DNA from: Acholeplasmatales bacterium
GTDB lineage: Bacteria > Bacillota_I > Bacilli_A > Acholeplasmatales > Anaeroplasmataceae
Reading direction: 5' to 3'
Assembly: GCA_016288855.1 (NCBI GenBank)
Contig: JAEELJ010000082.1
Location: forward strand, 1 to 47,678
DNA: 47,678 nt
Made by a program: the position numbers and the translations under genes. Under the pieces are notes generated by a model. That model saw nothing but the letters and a program-made list of their open reading frames with translations. It was not told the DNA's origin and did not search any database. Below, one piece after another: positions 1-38,985 of the stretch. How positions within the stretch are numbered: position 1 is the first letter of the stretch; each line of letters starts with the position of its first letter.

Positions 1-3000
1 AACAGTAAATACAACAACAGCTGCACCAAGTACAACAACAGTAAATACAACAACAGCTGCACCAAGTACAACAACAGTAAATACAACGACAGCTGCACCT
101 AGTACAACAACAGTAAATACAACGACAGCTGCACCAAGTACAACAACAGTTGATACAACAACAGCTGCACCTAGTACAACTTCAGTAAATACTACTACAT
201 CTACTAGTGAAATCACTGAAGCAGGAGAAGTTTCAAAGGATGGACAAGTAAATGTTCTAAATTGCTATGGTGAACTTGAATCTGCATATGTTGAATTCAC
301 ACCTGTTGCTGGAGCAACATCTTATAATGTATATCTTGAGGGTGGTAAATATACAACATCAACACTTGTTGATTCTAATGTTGCTTATACAAGACAAACA
401 TCAAGTACTGTTACAAGAATTGATTTGATTGGTTTACAATCAAGTGATTATAAGGCTAAAATTGTTCCTGTTTATGGAACAGAAGAATCTTTAGCAACAC
501 CAACAGAAGTAACCTTTAATGTAAAATCATATGATCGTTCAGGTTATGCTCACTTCAAGTACACTAATGGTGTTGGTGCATATAATGACGATGGAACATT
601 AAAGGATAATGCAATCGTTATTTATGTAACTGATGAAAATAAGAATACAGTTATGAAGGATATTTGTGAAAAATATTCTGAATTATCAATGTTCCAAATT
701 CCATCATATTATACAAATGATTACATGGGACAGGATGCTAATTCAATTGGTTGGTGGTTAAATAATACACAATTCTCTAAGGCTGAAAAGGACTCTAAGG
801 GAAATATTTATGAACCACAGTCTGGTAGGAAAACATCAGATACATACGATCCAAATGGTGCAAGCCTTGGATTTGCACAATTAGGAACTGAACATCCAAT
901 TGTAGTTAGATTTGTAGGAGAAGTAACTGCACCAGAAGGCTTAACTGTTTATGATTCATACAAGCTTGGTGGTTCAGAGGGCGATAATGGTATGATGGCT
1001 CGTATGAAAAACCTATTAAATGTAACTATCGAAGGTGTTGGTGACGATGCTATTATTGAAGGATGGGGCTTCCATTTCATTTCAGCAGATACAACAGGCA
1101 CTTATGGTAAATCATTTGAAGCAAGAAATTTAACATTTGATAAATACGCTGAAGATGCATTAGGTATGGAAGGCGATCAATCAAATGGTGTAATTACTAA
1201 GTCAGTTGAAAGATGCTGGGTACACCATAATACATTCTTACCAGGATATTGTGCAAATCCTGCAGAATCTGATAAGGGTGAAGGTGATGGTTCATGCGAC
1301 TTTAAGCGTGGTCAATATTTCACAATGTCTTATAACTATTATGAATACTGCCATAAGACTAACTTAGTTGGTTCAGCTGATGACTCATTACAGTTCAACC
1401 TTTCATTCCATCATAATTATTGGTATAACTGTGGTTCAAGAATGCCTTTATTAAGACAAGCTAATATTCACTTCTATAACAATTATATTTATGGTGATTC
1501 AAGTGATTCTAAATCAGCATTATCATATGTATCATCAGTTAGAGCTGGTGCTTATATGTTTGCGGAAGCAAATTATTATGAAGGATGCAAGCAAATTGTT
1601 GAATTAAAGAGTGGAGCAGTTAAAGCATTCAATAATGCATATGTTCAATGCTTCAATGGCGATGGTTCTACAAGAGTAGATGCAAGAGAAACATCTGTTC
1701 CAGCATCAGCTTCTTGCAACTATAATGGAACAAGCTTCCAAGATTTCGATACAAATTCAACATTATTCTATTATGATCAATCTAAGAATAAGAGTGATTG
1801 CTATTTAACAACTCCTGAGGTTGCAAGACATGAAGTAATTATGAATGCAGGTTCTCGCTATAGAACAAATCTAGACAAGGCATCTGCAACAATAGTTGAT
1901 TCAGGATTCAGTGGTGTAACACCTGCAAATGCTGTTAATGTTCCATCTGAAGGTGTGTTTACTGCAACAATTCCTACATCAAAGGGTTCAACTACAGTTG
2001 ATAATATTGTTTGGAATAATATTACAGGCTCAAGCAATGGAGAAGCAAAGATTCGTGGCAAGGGACTTACATTTAAGCTATCAACTTATGCTACAGTAAC
2101 AGTAACTGGTTCTGCATCATCAACTGCAGCATTAAATCCGATTTCAATTGTAAAAGAAGATGGTACTGTTGTAGCCGGTGATTATGGTTCAGTAGTACTT
2201 GCTCCTGGTATTTATACAATTACATCTTGTCAAAAGGATAAGGATTCTACTATTGCATCATTAACATTTGAAAAGTTTGATTCTGAAGCATTAAAAGAAC
2301 AATTAATTAGTGAATACAATGCTGCATACGCATTAATTCCTTCTGAGATTACATTTACTGATAGCTGCTATGAGGCTATTTCTAATGCTATTACAGCATA
2401 TGATGCTTTAGGCGATTTCAAGAGTGAAGTTTCAACAAATCCATATAATCAATTTAATGAATATATTGCATTAAATGTTTCTTATGTTGAACAGTTAATT
2501 TCTGCAATTGGAACTGTTTCAAGTGAATCTTCTCAGGCAATTGCATTAGCAAGAAGCGCTTATAATTCTTTAATTGCAAAGGATTCAACAGCAGTTGTAT
2601 CAAATTACAATGTCTTAGTTGCTGCAGAAGCTGAATATCAGTCTTATGCTGTTGATGGTTGTGTTGCATTAATTAACGCAATAGGTACAGTTACATTAGA
2701 TAGTAAAGAAGCAATTACATTAGCTAGAACAGCATATGAAGCTTTATCAGATACACAAAAGGAACAAGTATCTAATTATTCAGTTTTAGAAGCAGCAGAA
2801 GCTACATATAATGATTTATATGCAGTAAATGCAGTTGAAGTTTTAATTAATAATACATCTTTAGAAGCTAATCAATCAGCAATAAAGGCTGTAATTGATG
2901 CTTATAATGGATTAACAGACACACAAAAAGCTAAAGTTACAAGTACTGAAAAATTATCTCAATTAAAGGTACAATATGTAATTAACTTAATTGCATCATT

Positions 3001-3541
3001 ACCTGCAACAATTACTTATTCAGATGCTGCAAGTGTAAATGAAGCAAAGAATGAATATGAAAAGTTAACAACAGAAGAAAAGTCAAGTGTAACAAATTAT
3101 TCTAAGCTTGAAACAGCAATTAAGGCTTTAGATGATTTAGGTATTGAAACTGTATCTTCTTATAATTCAGGTAATTTAACAAATGGTTGGACAGTTACTG
3201 GTGGTACTGCAACATCAACTAGTACAACAGCAGCAGTACATACTGGCTCATCTTTAGTAGCAGTTTCATCATTTGCATTAGAAAGCCTTTCATCTGTAAC
3301 AATTACAGCTCAAGTAAATGATAAGGGTTCTACAACATTCTCATTCTATTACTCACTTGATGGTGGTGAAACTTGGCAGTTATTTAGCTCAGGTAAGGCT
3401 GGTGTAAATGGTTCATCAACTGATATTGCATTAACTGGCACTGCAGTTACAGGTCCTGTACTTGTTAAACTTGTTGTAACATGTACAAAGGCAGAATCAA
3501 ACGCTAAGAGTGTATCAATTACAAATATAAAAATTAACTAA
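1..3541 (+). CDS. secreted pectate lyase, PL1 family, 5'-truncated by window edge
   Basis: The reading frame is open from base 2 (1179 codons visible), so the gene begins outside the window. Order seen: Thr-rich tandem repeats (2-217); a fibronectin-III-like segment (about 240-530); a pectate lyase family 1 parallel beta-helix core (about 550-1830) with WVHHNTF, DGSCDFKRGQYFTMSYN and HHNYWYNCGSRMPLLRQ, the last holding the family's conserved Arg; a beta-rich, carbohydrate-binding-like segment (about 1950-2270); about four helical repeats (2480-3150) of the form AY..L...QK..V.NY..L..AE; and a C-terminal beta-sandwich ending in TNIKIN. Enzymes of this family cleave polygalacturonate by beta-elimination outside the cell. 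No LPXTG sorting signal is present at the C-terminus. The signal peptide would lie upstream. A terminator follows directly. The lyase call is strong; substrate and the accessory-domain roles are inferred. Confidence 0.88.
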   Translation, partial: TVNTTTAAPSTTTVNTTTAAPSTTTVNTTTAAPSTTTVNTTTAAPSTTTVDTTTAAPSTTSVNTTTSTSEITEAGEVSKDGQVNVLNCYGELESAYVEFTPVAGATSYNVYLEGGKYTTSTLVDSNVAYTRQTSSTVTRIDLIGLQSSDYKAKIVPVYGTEESLATPTEVTFNVKSYDRSGYAHFKYTNGVGAYNDDGTLKDNAIVIYVTDENKNTVMKDICEKYSELSMFQIPSYYTNDYMGQDANSIGWWLNNTQFSKAEKDSKGNIYEPQSGRKTSDTYDPNGASLGFAQLGTEHPIVVRFVGEVTAPEGLTVYDSYKLGGSEGDNGMMARMKNLLNVTIEGVGDDAIIEGWGFHFISADTTGTYGKSFEARNLTFDKYAEDALGMEGDQSNGVITKSVERCWVHHNTFLPGYCANPAESDKGEGDGSCDFKRGQYFTMSYNYYEYCHKTNLVGSADDSLQFNLSFHHNYWYNCGSRMPLLRQANIHFYNNYIYGDSSDSKSALSYVSSVRAGAYMFAEANYYEGCKQIVELKSGAVKAFNNAYVQCFNGDGSTRVDARETSVPASASCNYNGTSFQDFDTNSTLFYYDQSKNKSDCYLTTPEVARHEVIMNAGSRYRTNLDKASATIVDSGFSGVTPANAVNVPSEGVFTATIPTSKGSTTVDNIVWNNITGSSNGEAKIRGKGLTFKLSTYATVTVTGSASSTAALNPISIVKEDGTVVAGDYGSVVLAPGIYTITSCQKDKDSTIASLTFEKFDSEALKEQLISEYNAAYALIPSEITFTDSCYEAISNAITAYDALGDFKSEVSTNPYNQFNEYIALNVSYVEQLISAIGTVSSESSQAIALARSAYNSLIAKDSTAVVSNYNVLVAAEAEYQSYAVDGCVALINAIGTVTLDSKEAITLARTAYEALSDTQKEQVSNYSVLEAAEATYNDLYAVNAVEVLINNTSLEANQSAIKAVIDAYNGLTDTQKAKVTSTEKLSQLKVQYVINLIASLPATITYSDAASVNEAKNEYEKLTTEEKSSVTNYSKLETAIKALDDLGIETVSSYNSGNLTNGWTVTGGTATSTSTTAAVHTGSSLVAVSSFALESLSSVTITAQVNDKGSTTFSFYYSLDGGETWQLFSSGKAGVNGSSTDIALTGTAVTGPVLVKLVVTCTKAESNAKSVSITNIKIN
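2..217 (+). repeat. 36-bp in-frame tandem repeats encoding a Thr-rich linker
   Basis: Five near-identical 36-bp units start at 2, 38, 74, 110 and 146, each encoding TVNTTTAAPSTT (one has D for N). A degenerate sixth unit starts at 182. Differences between units are mostly third-base changes. The array probably continues upstream of the window. It is a flexible, glycosylation-prone type of linker between extracellular domains. Confidence 0.95.
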
Positions 3542-30406: not shown

Positions 30407-33400
30407 TTAAGCCTTCCTTAAGTTAGATGCTTTCTTAATATATTTACTTTGCTCCTTATCAATTTCAGCAATGTTTTTATTATAATTTTGTAGGATAATA
30501 TCAATTTGATTTTTAGATTTCTTTTTCTTTTGAGAATAGCTTATATGCATTTCTGATATAGAATTATCTATATCCTTATTTCTATCTTTTAAATCTAATA
30601 CTGCAGCTAAATTCTTATGCTTTAGGGCATTAGGTATTCTTTTAATATCTATATCACGTTGCATTAGGTATTCTACTAAATTATTATCACAAATTTGTTT
30701 TTTATTTTGAGCTTCCTTAAAATAAATAAATCTACTATTCTTATATTCTGTCTCAATTCTATTGTTAAATGATAAATAATCCATTTTAATATCATACATA
30801 TTTTGGTTTATTGCATTCAACTCTCTATATAATTGTGTTTCACTATTAGTTAATAATAATTTCTTTTCTTTGTTATCAACTGCGTATGAATTATCAAGTC
30901 TTCTATCATATGTTCTATATAGATGCTCTGTATTGCTTTCTTTTTTTCTTGCAATATTTAAGTCTCTATTTTTAGAACTATATTCTTGTACGAATCTTTG
31001 GTTTTGGTTTCTTAGATTCTTTGAGTTTTCTTTTGCAAGCTCTTTAATAGAAGAAGAGAATGAATTATTAAGAGTAGTTTCGCCAGCCTTATGATATTTA
31101 ATACTTTCTGTTTTAAATGTTTTAATTATAGAATATACATCATAATATATTACATTCATATAATCTCTTAGTGCTATATATTTTTCCTTTAAAGCATCCT
31201 TATATGAATCAAATGGCACTTCAATTTTATTAATATATTGATATTTTTCATCTAATCCTTGAGCTAACTTTTCTGTTAAATCCTGAACCATTGTATTAAG
31301 CTTATATAATGAAACAGTATTAGTTTTTTGCATAGTAGAAATATCTTTTATTTCACGGTTATGTCTTATAACTAAATCCTTTAATTCATTATTTAATCTC
31401 TTAATAGAATTATTATATCCATTTAATAGCTTATTCTTATTTGAAATATCCTTTTTCAATGTTTGAATTTGCTTTAAAAGATCTTGCTTTGATGCAGATT
31501 TATCGTTTTTAACGCCATATAATAGGTTTTGGATTGTTTTGTTTTCTTTATTAATTTCATCCTTTAGAATTTCTATACGCTTTTTAGTATCACTAATGTT
31601 ATTATTGATTCTTAGGTTTTCTTCATTAAAATGGTCATTTGATGAATTAAATGAAACCTCAAATTTAAATGCTGCTTCAAATTTAATTGTTTGATCAATT
31701 AATTCAATAATAACCTTTTTATAATTATCGATACTGATTTTTGCGAATTCATATAATTCAACTTTAATTTTTTCTAAGAATTTTTTATTAAATTCAAAGT
31801 CCTTAGGATTTTTAATATTATCATTAAGTAAAACATTAGTTGTTTTTATTAATATGTTTTCTAATGCGTTAAAGATTATTAAAAGAGAAGAAGTATGATG
31901 ATTAATATCTCTTATTTCATATTCAAATCTTTTTCTTAATGTTTCATTAATTGTCTTTTCTTTCTTATATGTAAATTCCATAAATAATTTTCTAGATTCA
32001 TATTGCTCACGATTTCCTAAAATAGAAATATCGTTATTAACGTTCATAATATGTAAATCTAGCATAATGTTATTTATATTATGCTTACATTCATTAATTG
32101 CACGTCTTGCATCATTTTGTAATTCAATTTTCTTTTGTGAATAATCAAATAATGAATTAGAAATTTTTGTATATATCTCAAGCTGTCTTTCATTATATTC
32201 TAAAAGTTTTTTACATCTTTCAATATATAATGCTCCAGTAACACGTAGATACATAATTTCTTTGTTATGCTTTTTTTGAATCATTTCTGAAACTAATTCT
32301 TTAAGCTTATGAGAAGATTCTATTTCCAAAATACACTTTCTTTTTTCTGTTAAAAGCTTTTCGTTGTTTTTTAGATATTTAGCTTCTAATGCATCCGCTT
32401 TAGCTTCTAATTCATATAATTTCATATCAGATGAGTGTCTGATATGATTAATCTTTTTATTGATTTCATAGCTATCAAGAGATATTTCATAATTTGATAA
32501 AGCATCCGCCTGATTATTCTTTTCCTGATAGTATTTGTTGTCCTTTAATTCGTTTTCGTTATACTTTTTTATGGCAGTTTGTCTTGATGAATCAATTAAG
32601 ATTTTATTTGACTGATATTCATTTACCTTTTTATTGAATTCATTTTCTAAAGTTTTAATTTGCTTTTTAGTTTCATTCATCATATTCTTATAATAAGAAT
32701 ATGATTTTCTTTTAACTTTTTTCATTAAGCAATTTTTATTAATGTTATGACTTTTGTTTAATTCATAAAGCTCTTTTTCTTCCTCTAAATGATTTAAGTA
32801 TAAATCATAATAATTGTTTTCTAGGATTTCATTTGCTTTTTCTACATATAATTCTTTAGCTTCATTATGTCTTTTTAGATTTTGTTCAGTAGAGGTAATG
32901 AATTCCTTATTTGAATCCTGAGCTAGCTTTAAGTATTCATTCTTTTTTGTGTTACGTTCTTCTAATAGCTTATTTTGAGTTTCTTGATAATGTTGCTTAG
33001 AAGTATTAGCCATACTAGAATGAGTAATATTTAATTCTTTAATTTTATTATTTAATTCAATACTTAGATTTCTTTTTTCTTCATTGATTTTTTTAATATC
33101 ATCAATATGATTAAGCCTTAATTCTTCAAGTTGAGATTCAACCTTTTCTAGGCTATATTCATAATTCTTTATTATTTCATCAATTTGAGAATGGAAGATG
33201 TGTTCGTTTTTTTTATGATTCTTTTCAGATTCATCAAGCTTTTTAAATGTTTCTTCGTTATAATTTTCAGCATCCTCATCATATGTATATTTAGCTTCGG
33301 TATATTGGTATGTATATTTTGCAATATCATTTTTAGCATCATTTCTTAGCATATCAATATTTAGGTTAGAAGAATTGATGAATGTATCAGTATCTAATCC

Positions 33401-33766
33401 AAGGTCATCATTTTTATTTTTGTTTGCTTCATATGATTCCTTAATTGAATATTTTTTTGAATCAATTTGTGCTTGAATATCTTGTGTCGCAAGGCTTATT
33501 CTTTTTTGATAATCCTTATTAAGCTCGTTAACTTTTTTATTATGTAATACAAGATCATTTTGGAAAGAATTAGTATTTGTATCAATGACTTTGTTTAATC
33601 TTAGAAGGTTATCACAAATGTGATGATAATTAAGATCAACAATGTCTCTTATTTTATCAACCATAGAAGGAGAAACTGGTGACTTTGAGTCTAGTCCATC
33701 ATATGAATTAATTATTGATTGAAGTTTTAGATTGAATTTGTCTAGATCAATATCAAAATCACTCAT
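30407..33766 (-). CDS. giant coiled-coil protein, unknown function
   Basis: 1119 aa, almost wholly charged helix (Lys, Glu, Asn, Gln with heptad-spaced Leu/Ile/Tyr). No membrane segment, signal peptide, Walker A/B motif or hinge-like globular centre is visible, so it is not an SMC/Rad50 ATPase. An N-terminal ~60 residues (MSDFDIDLDKFNLKLQSII) look less coiled. Runs such as SQIDEIIKNYEYSLEKVESQ and YKKEKTINETLRKRF are typical of long parallel coils. The start is ATG at 33766 after GGGAGGA; an in-frame GTG 7 codons upstream was rejected. It forms an operon with the S41-like lipoprotein, between ftsZ and ruvA, opposite to the flanking genes. A filament or scaffold role is a guess. Confidence 0.85.
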   Translation of the reverse strand: MSDFDIDLDKFNLKLQSIINSYDGLDSKSPVSPSMVDKIRDIVDLNYHHICDNLLRLNKVIDTNTNSFQNDLVLHNKKVNELNKDYQKRISLATQDIQAQIDSKKYSIKESYEANKNKNDDLGLDTDTFINSSNLNIDMLRNDAKNDIAKYTYQYTEAKYTYDEDAENYNEETFKKLDESEKNHKKNEHIFHSQIDEIIKNYEYSLEKVESQLEELRLNHIDDIKKINEEKRNLSIELNNKIKELNITHSSMANTSKQHYQETQNKLLEERNTKKNEYLKLAQDSNKEFITSTEQNLKRHNEAKELYVEKANEILENNYYDLYLNHLEEEKELYELNKSHNINKNCLMKKVKRKSYSYYKNMMNETKKQIKTLENEFNKKVNEYQSNKILIDSSRQTAIKKYNENELKDNKYYQEKNNQADALSNYEISLDSYEINKKINHIRHSSDMKLYELEAKADALEAKYLKNNEKLLTEKRKCILEIESSHKLKELVSEMIQKKHNKEIMYLRVTGALYIERCKKLLEYNERQLEIYTKISNSLFDYSQKKIELQNDARRAINECKHNINNIMLDLHIMNVNNDISILGNREQYESRKLFMEFTYKKEKTINETLRKRFEYEIRDINHHTSSLLIIFNALENILIKTTNVLLNDNIKNPKDFEFNKKFLEKIKVELYEFAKISIDNYKKVIIELIDQTIKFEAAFKFEVSFNSSNDHFNEENLRINNNISDTKKRIEILKDEINKENKTIQNLLYGVKNDKSASKQDLLKQIQTLKKDISNKNKLLNGYNNSIKRLNNELKDLVIRHNREIKDISTMQKTNTVSLYKLNTMVQDLTEKLAQGLDEKYQYINKIEVPFDSYKDALKEKYIALRDYMNVIYYDVYSIIKTFKTESIKYHKAGETTLNNSFSSSIKELAKENSKNLRNQNQRFVQEYSSKNRDLNIARKKESNTEHLYRTYDRRLDNSYAVDNKEKKLLLTNSETQLYRELNAINQNMYDIKMDYLSFNNRIETEYKNSRFIYFKEAQNKKQICDNNLVEYLMQRDIDIKRIPNALKHKNLAAVLDLKDRNKDIDNSISEMHISYSQKKKKSKNQIDIILQNYNKNIAEIDKEQSKYIKKASNLRKA

Positions 33767-33798
33767 TATAAGTCCTCCCTTTCGCACTAATTATATAT

Positions 33799-38330: not shown

Positions 38331-38696
38331 ATGACTCCATTACAAATTGTACTATTTATAGTTCTTCCAGTATTAGTTCTTATAGCAGCAGGAATTGTTG
38401 TTGCTAAAGTACTAAAGATTAATAAAAAGAATAAATCAAATAAGCCAAAGATTAAAGTGGATGATGAATTTATTACAAATCTTATAGAATTATATGGTGG
38501 AAGTAGTAATATAGTTGATGTTGTAGTTGATAACGGTAGATTAAATATTACAATTTCTGATTTAGATAAAGCTAATTTAAATGGATTAAAAGAGATTGCA
38601 ACAAATGGTGTATTTGTTACAGGATCTACAATAAAAACATTATTTAGATTAGATTCTGAGTTAATTAAAAAGGCTATTTTAAATAGATTAAATTAA
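38331..38696 (+). CDS. membrane-anchored PTS EIIB-like protein lacking the phosphocysteine
   Basis: 121 aa. One N-terminal membrane helix (about 4-28), a Lys/Asn-rich linker, then residues 44-120 resembling the EIIB domain of glucose-family PTS permeases. By eye it aligns without gaps to the E. coli PtsG EIIB segment from GG-x-x-NI (here 56-61) through RL (70-71) and GLK (85-87) to GVxVxGS (93-99) and F (105). The phosphorylated Cys of the family, in the C-I-T-R-L motif, is replaced by Asp67 (VVDNGRLNI), so it cannot carry phosphate as a thiophosphate. ptsH starts 16 bases later, in the same transcript. A regulatory or sensory role in the PTS is inferred, not shown. Shorter than YajC-type proteins and not matching them. 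Confidence 0.65.
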   Translation: MTPLQIVLFIVLPVLVLIAAGIVVAKVLKINKKNKSNKPKIKVDDEFITNLIELYGGSSNIVDVVVDNGRLNITISDLDKANLNGLKEIATNGVFVTGSTIKTLFRLDSELIKKAILNRLN

Positions 38697-38712
38697 AAAG
38701 GAGACTATAGTT

Positions 38713-38985
38713 ATGGTTAAGAAGACATTTAGAATTACTGCAGAAAATGGAATTCACGCAAGACCTGCAACTACATTAGTAAATGTATGTATGAATTTCA
38801 AGAGTGATTTAAAGCTTACTGCAATGAGAAAAACAGTTGATTTCAAATCAATAATGGGTGTTATGTCACTTGGAATTTATTCAGGAACAACAATTGAAGT
38901 AAGAGCTGAAGGCGAAGATGAAGAAGAAGCTCTTGCAGCAATTAAGTCAAAGATTATTGAACTTTCATTAGGAAAAGAAATTTAA
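38713..38985 (+). CDS. ptsH: phosphocarrier protein HPr
   Basis: 90 aa. NGIHARPAT carries the His15-type phosphorylation site and DFKSIMGVMSLGI the Ser46-type regulatory site used by HPr kinase in Firmicutes. HPr takes phosphate from Enzyme I and passes it to sugar EIIA proteins; Ser phosphorylation mediates catabolite control. ptsI does not follow, unlike in many genomes. AAGGAG at 38698 is the ribosome site. Confidence 0.97.
   Translation: MVKKTFRITAENGIHARPATTLVNVCMNFKSDLKLTAMRKTVDFKSIMGVMSLGIYSGTTIEVRAEGEDEEEALAAIKSKIIELSLGKEI

Follow-up and report, generated by a model that had tools for sequence, protein, structure and literature searches.

In the phosphotransferase system (PTS), HPr normally contacts EIIA, not EIIB. 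In Escherichia coli, the EIIB domain of PtsG sequesters the repressor Mlc at the membrane; PDB entry 3bp8 is the Mlc/EIIB complex. A 2026 study names the mycoplasmal protein MG_129 an "orphan EIIB," presents AlphaFold 3 (AF3) predictions in which FtsY binds to MG_129 and to PtsH, and cites one MPN_268-FtsY crosslink (PMC13047044). Here we compare with these systems an EIIB-like gene that lies just ahead of ptsH in a 47,678 nucleotide stretch of Acholeplasmatales DNA (contig JAEELJ010000082.1 of assembly GCA_016288855.1, positions 1 to 47,678; this whole stretch is called the window below). The reading we tentatively favor is that its product is a phosphotransfer-dead membrane docking domain whose core role would be independent of the PTS. 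It builds on the predicted fold and anchor, the loss of the active site cysteine, conservation across the bacterial class, and persistence in genomes without detected HPr and glucose-type EIIC, from which we infer docking, a partner, an orientation and descent from a ptsG-like gene. The parts of the gene are as follows:

38331-38696, + strand: EIIB-like gene, 121 amino acids, one transmembrane helix plus a Cys-less glucose-type EIIB domain (open reading frame (ORF) list, profile and PDB matches, AlphaFold2 model)
38337-38429, + strand: predicted N-terminal membrane helix, residues 3-33 (AlphaFold2 model; hydropathy peak)
38463-38690, + strand: EIIB domain, residues 45-120 (PDB alignment, AlphaFold2 model, Foldseek)
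38529-38531, + strand: Asp67 codon, opposite phosphocysteine Cys421 of E. coli PtsG (alignments)
38538-38540, + strand: Arg70 codon, opposite Arg424 of E. coli PtsG, near-invariant in the order (alignments)

The 121 amino acid product is, with high confidence, a membrane-anchored protein of the EIIB fold that lacks the phosphotransfer residue, as judged from sequence matches and a structure model. Two NCBIfam glucose IIBC models match it with E=2e-9 and 1.8e-7 and the EIIB_glc model with E=1.7e-4, all under the curated cut-offs; the search against Pfam PF00367 that the original prediction proposed does give a match, but a weak one that also falls under the cut-off (E=0.019). EIIB-Glc sequences from the PDB (E ~1e-6) align without gaps over residues 45-114 and place Asp67 opposite Cys421 and Arg70 opposite Arg424. 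The AlphaFold2 model (mean predicted local distance difference test score, pLDDT, of 90) consists of a helix at residues 3-33 and an EIIB domain at 45-120, and its top Foldseek matches are the E. coli EIIB-Glc structures 3bp3 and 3bp8, with target template modeling (TM) scores of 0.84 and 0.88. These results bear out the original prediction, made by eye from the DNA letters, in its likening of the soluble part to glucose-type EIIB, in the replacement of the catalytic Cys by Asp67, and in the single N-terminal helix as the anchor. A lysine-rich stretch follows the helix, which by the positive-inside rule suggests that the EIIB domain is cytoplasmic.

The protein shares with the glucose-type EIIB of E. 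coli PtsG (PDB 3bp3, 3bp8, 1o2f) the predicted fold, a gap-free alignment of ~70 residues, the GG..NI motif and the arginine after the active site; it differs in lacking the phosphocysteine and an EIIC domain and in having a single helix of its own, and no glucose-type EIIA or EIIC was detected in its genome. The likeness to the PtsG EIIB-Mlc pair would be one of analogy, in that a membrane-placed EIIB domain can act through protein binding besides phosphate transfer, although the E. coli domain belongs to a permease and retains its catalytic competence.

The general PTS components are present in the window's genome. There is one EI (502 amino acids, locus L074:118-1626 on contig C56) in which the His loop and the motifs of the phosphoenolpyruvate (PEP) domain are kept, as well as HprK and two PF00381 (HPr) matches, one of which was located and lies in the window. 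At ~500 amino acids, the EI in this family is shorter than the usual 570-575, with the catalytic motifs kept. No match was found in this genome to glucose-type EIIC (PF02378), to EIIA of the glucose, fructose/Ntr or mannose families (PF00358, PF00359, PF03610; other EII families were not searched), or to PF00367 beyond the EIIB-like protein itself; among the families searched, the EIIC and EIIA partners expected of a functional glucose-type EIIB are thus missing.

Within the order, the EIIB-like protein was found in 57 of 60 relatives, including all 34 of good quality; a named one is Anaeroplasma bactoclasticum ATCC 27112, with 55% identity, which indicates that the window's genome belongs to Anaeroplasma or lies close to it. 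The contig scan used a closer set of homologs, alignment A1 being too diverse. A putative second homolog in genome G025 (a 1002 amino acid ORF, L059) has a weak local match alone and otherwise no resemblance, and was taken as chance. The active site position is never Cys in the 57 sequences: it is Asp or Glu in 48 of them (84%), Glu being as frequent as Asp, and Val, Thr, Lys, Ser or Ile in the remainder, while Arg70 is near-invariant. The non-transporting, membrane-bound, Cys-less EIIB fold beside HPr that was originally proposed is conserved across the order.

Of the 394 genomes of the class, 355 matched in a profile search for the family, and these represent 178 of the 195 genera. The genome count includes three weak, fragmentary matches in genus g23 that were later treated as negative, leaving 352 positives, and true permease EIIB domains can match the profile too, so that the count among genomes without PF02378 (217 of 254 positive) is cleaner. 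The helix, Asn60 and mostly Arg70 are kept among the homologs. The active site residue is not: in 54 short homologs of other families it is Thr (14), Glu (11), Asn (10), Lys (7), Ser (5), Asp (3), Cys (2), Val (1) or Ile (1). The proposed change from Cys to Asp holds for the order insofar as Cys is absent and acidic residues prevail, but Thr, Asn, Lys and Ser are frequent elsewhere. A natural phospho-mimic is not supported in general, because many homologs carry a residue that is not acidic there (Ser, Thr, Asn, Lys, Ile or Val), and we ruled it out as a family-wide feature. The neighboring genes vary as well; they encode HPr in the window's order and in families f12, f15, f16 and f24, NAD kinase in f8, f11, f13, f21 and f25, transketolase in f7 and f19, pyruvate formate-lyase in f17, and a histidine kinase in f14. 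In the literature library searched, no paper dealt with the family across the class. It has barely been noticed so far, and the present account offers a class-wide view of it, not a proven PTS sensor.

HPr was not detected in 135 of the 352 positive genomes, and 130 positive genomes have neither HPr nor glucose-type EIIC. Among these 130 are all 57 positive f14 genomes, all 39 of f11, and 11 that belong to a single mycoplasma-like genus. Two members of the window's own order, in which HPr was not detected, kept the EIIB-like gene at its usual place just ahead of trmB after the loss of ptsH, with Glu at the site in one (L229, genome G175) and Thr in the other (L051, genome G039). A role as PTS sensor or HPr-sequestering partner, as the original prediction had it, is not supported as the core function, given the 135 genomes that have the protein but no detected HPr, 130 of them without a glucose-type EIIC as well; these two loci point the same way. 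A job other than sugar transport is probable, because the protein is kept where the sugar transport system appears to be gone.

Several observations bear on where the protein came from. A tree built on the short domain unites 14 Cys-bearing permease EIIB domains and two Cys-bearing short proteins with a support of 96 in the Shimodaira-Hasegawa-like approximate likelihood ratio test (SH-aLRT); the Cys-less short proteins fall outside this group, and two degenerate permease-like proteins fall among those of f17. With few columns, the tree is weak. The two degenerate proteins belong to f22; they are full-length IIC-IIB-like proteins (L206:1501-3087 and L207:1860-3386) that both lack GITEP and the phosphocysteine and are apparent pseudo-permeases; one of them matches PTS_EIIC at 2.9e-14. 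One f22 protein adjoins genes for FtsW and NAD kinase (the latter truncated at the limit of the region read), like the short form in f17, and in f15 short homologs precede ptsH and ptsI in the position that a full IIC-IIB protein takes in a relative. Descent of the EIIB-like protein from a ptsG-like gene is plausible because of these degenerate IIC-IIB forms, the FtsW/NAD kinase context and the gene order in f15, and the linkage to ptsH may be a leftover of an ancestral ptsG-ptsH-ptsI order.

The mycoplasmal members of the family are recognized by profile matches in mycoplasma-like genomes. One such relative, L205, has ~120 amino acids, a single membrane helix and an EIIB-like domain with Thr in place of Cys, and it stands in the gene order TrpRS-Spx-NAD kinase-EIIB-like, within a region that resembles MG126-MG130. 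The order of these four genes is that of MG126-MG129 of Mycoplasma genitalium. The family thus apparently includes the counterpart of MG_129, likened through the gene order of L205 rather than the sequence of MG_129 itself. The window protein, too, is a small, single-helix, Cys-less EIIB-like protein. The relatives in the window's order differ from the MG_129/MPN_268 type in that the gene lies ahead of ptsH and that Asp or Glu stands where L205 has Thr.

In the reading favored here, the protein would be a pseudo-EIIB in which the chemistry of EIIB is impossible with the phosphocysteine gone, probably what remained of a ptsG-like IIC-IIB permease after its sugar-transporting part decayed. Held at the membrane by its one helix, it would offer a cytoplasmic docking surface to which a partner binds through the EIIB fold, with no transfer of phosphate. 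The core partner would be a non-PTS component shared by the class, for which FtsY, through the Mycoplasma relative MG_129, is the sole published candidate. In the window's order the protein may also touch HPr, perhaps as an added role, or the coupling to ptsH may simply be inherited gene order. A bolder form, in which a glucose permease stripped to a dead EIIB on a single helix became a PTS-independent and possibly essential docking factor of the whole class, for example in membrane targeting, is doubtful. That FtsY itself docks on this domain, as proposed for MG_129, is a specific form of the docking reading and is less likely again: the L205 relative in matching gene order and the class-wide retention are in its favor, but the crosslink spans 33 Å in the predicted complex, no ftsY linkage was noticed in the loci read, and genus g23 lacks the protein though FtsY is expected there. 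Little function at all, in a decaying ptsG remnant, would fit the permease origin suggested by the degenerate IIC-IIB forms and the fast sequence divergence (median end branch 0.71); it is improbable for a protein that is intact in most of the 394 genomes, including some of <1 Mb, and that keeps its helix, Asn60 and mostly Arg70. Least likely is an alternative phospho-acceptor, with Asp67 phosphorylated instead of Cys so that a relay stays alive. The position lies three residues before the conserved Arg and often carries Asp or Glu in the order, but Glu, which is as common as Asp, the Val, Thr, Lys, Ser and Ile found in the order and the Thr, Asn and Lys found elsewhere speak against such an acceptor, as does the lack of a detected EIIA donor in the families searched.

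The main rival to PTS-independent docking is a PTS-linked role in the window's order, in which the dead EIIB, by binding HPr or some regulator linked to the PTS at the membrane, would report or buffer the phosphorylation state of EI, HPr and HprK, there being no glucose-type permease here. We regard this as possible but rather unlikely. It would account for the retention of HPr, HprK and an EI bearing the catalytic motifs in the absence of detected glucose-type EII parts, and for the largely acidic Cys position in the order. A number of further findings weigh against a core role outside the PTS. One is the tight coupling to ptsH: ptsH lies directly downstream at 53 of the 57 loci of the order, with a median gap of 3 nt, and the conserved linkage proposed originally stands to that extent, although across the class it is patchy. 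Genomes with HPr are also more likely to have the EIIB-like protein, both in the class as a whole (odds ratio 8, Fisher p 3e-8, ignoring relatedness and due in part to g23) and among genomes without EIIC (odds ratio 5.5, uncorrected for relatedness). Genus g23 (G219, G246, G268 and others of the same order, with 0.5-0.9 Mb genomes), which is probably Phytoplasma, has no detected HPr and likewise no convincing EIIB-like protein, only the weak, fragmentary matches; since FtsY is presumably present there, the genus sits badly with an FtsY role as well. HPr absence was read from a single profile search, and the search for EI covered the window's own genome rather than the class. In M. hominis, genes for HPr and EIIB are described as the only ones of the PTS (PMC8895549). 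Against the PTS-linked role stand the 130 genomes that have the protein with neither HPr nor glucose-type EIIC, the persistence of the gene after ptsH loss within the order, and the failure of the acidic residue to be kept outside it. The usual contact of HPr is moreover EIIA, and the genomes without HPr weaken the ptsH linkage as proof of a PTS role.

If PTS-independent docking is correct, a catalytic sugar transport domain became a binding module that almost all of a bacterial class retains, small genomes in which neither HPr nor a glucose permease was detected included. MG_129, the orphan EIIB of mycoplasmas, would gain many relatives for functional tests, and a "PTS EIIB" annotation in these genomes need not imply sugar transport.

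Downstream of the EIIB-like gene in the window, the gap to the ptsH start is 16 nt, as originally noted:

38697-38703, + strand: Shine-Dalgarno-like AAAGGAG ahead of ptsH, within the 16-nt gap (sequence)
38713-38985, + strand: ptsH (HPr, 90 amino acids), with sites His15 (GIHARPA) and Ser46 (KSIMGVMSLG) present (ORF list, profile matches)

Elsewhere in the window, positions 30407-33787 (- strand) encode an unidentified long protein of 1126 amino acids rich in charged, coiled-coil-like sequence, and a large ORF of 1038 amino acids at 425-3541 (+ strand) resembles, by eye, a secreted polysaccharide lyase.
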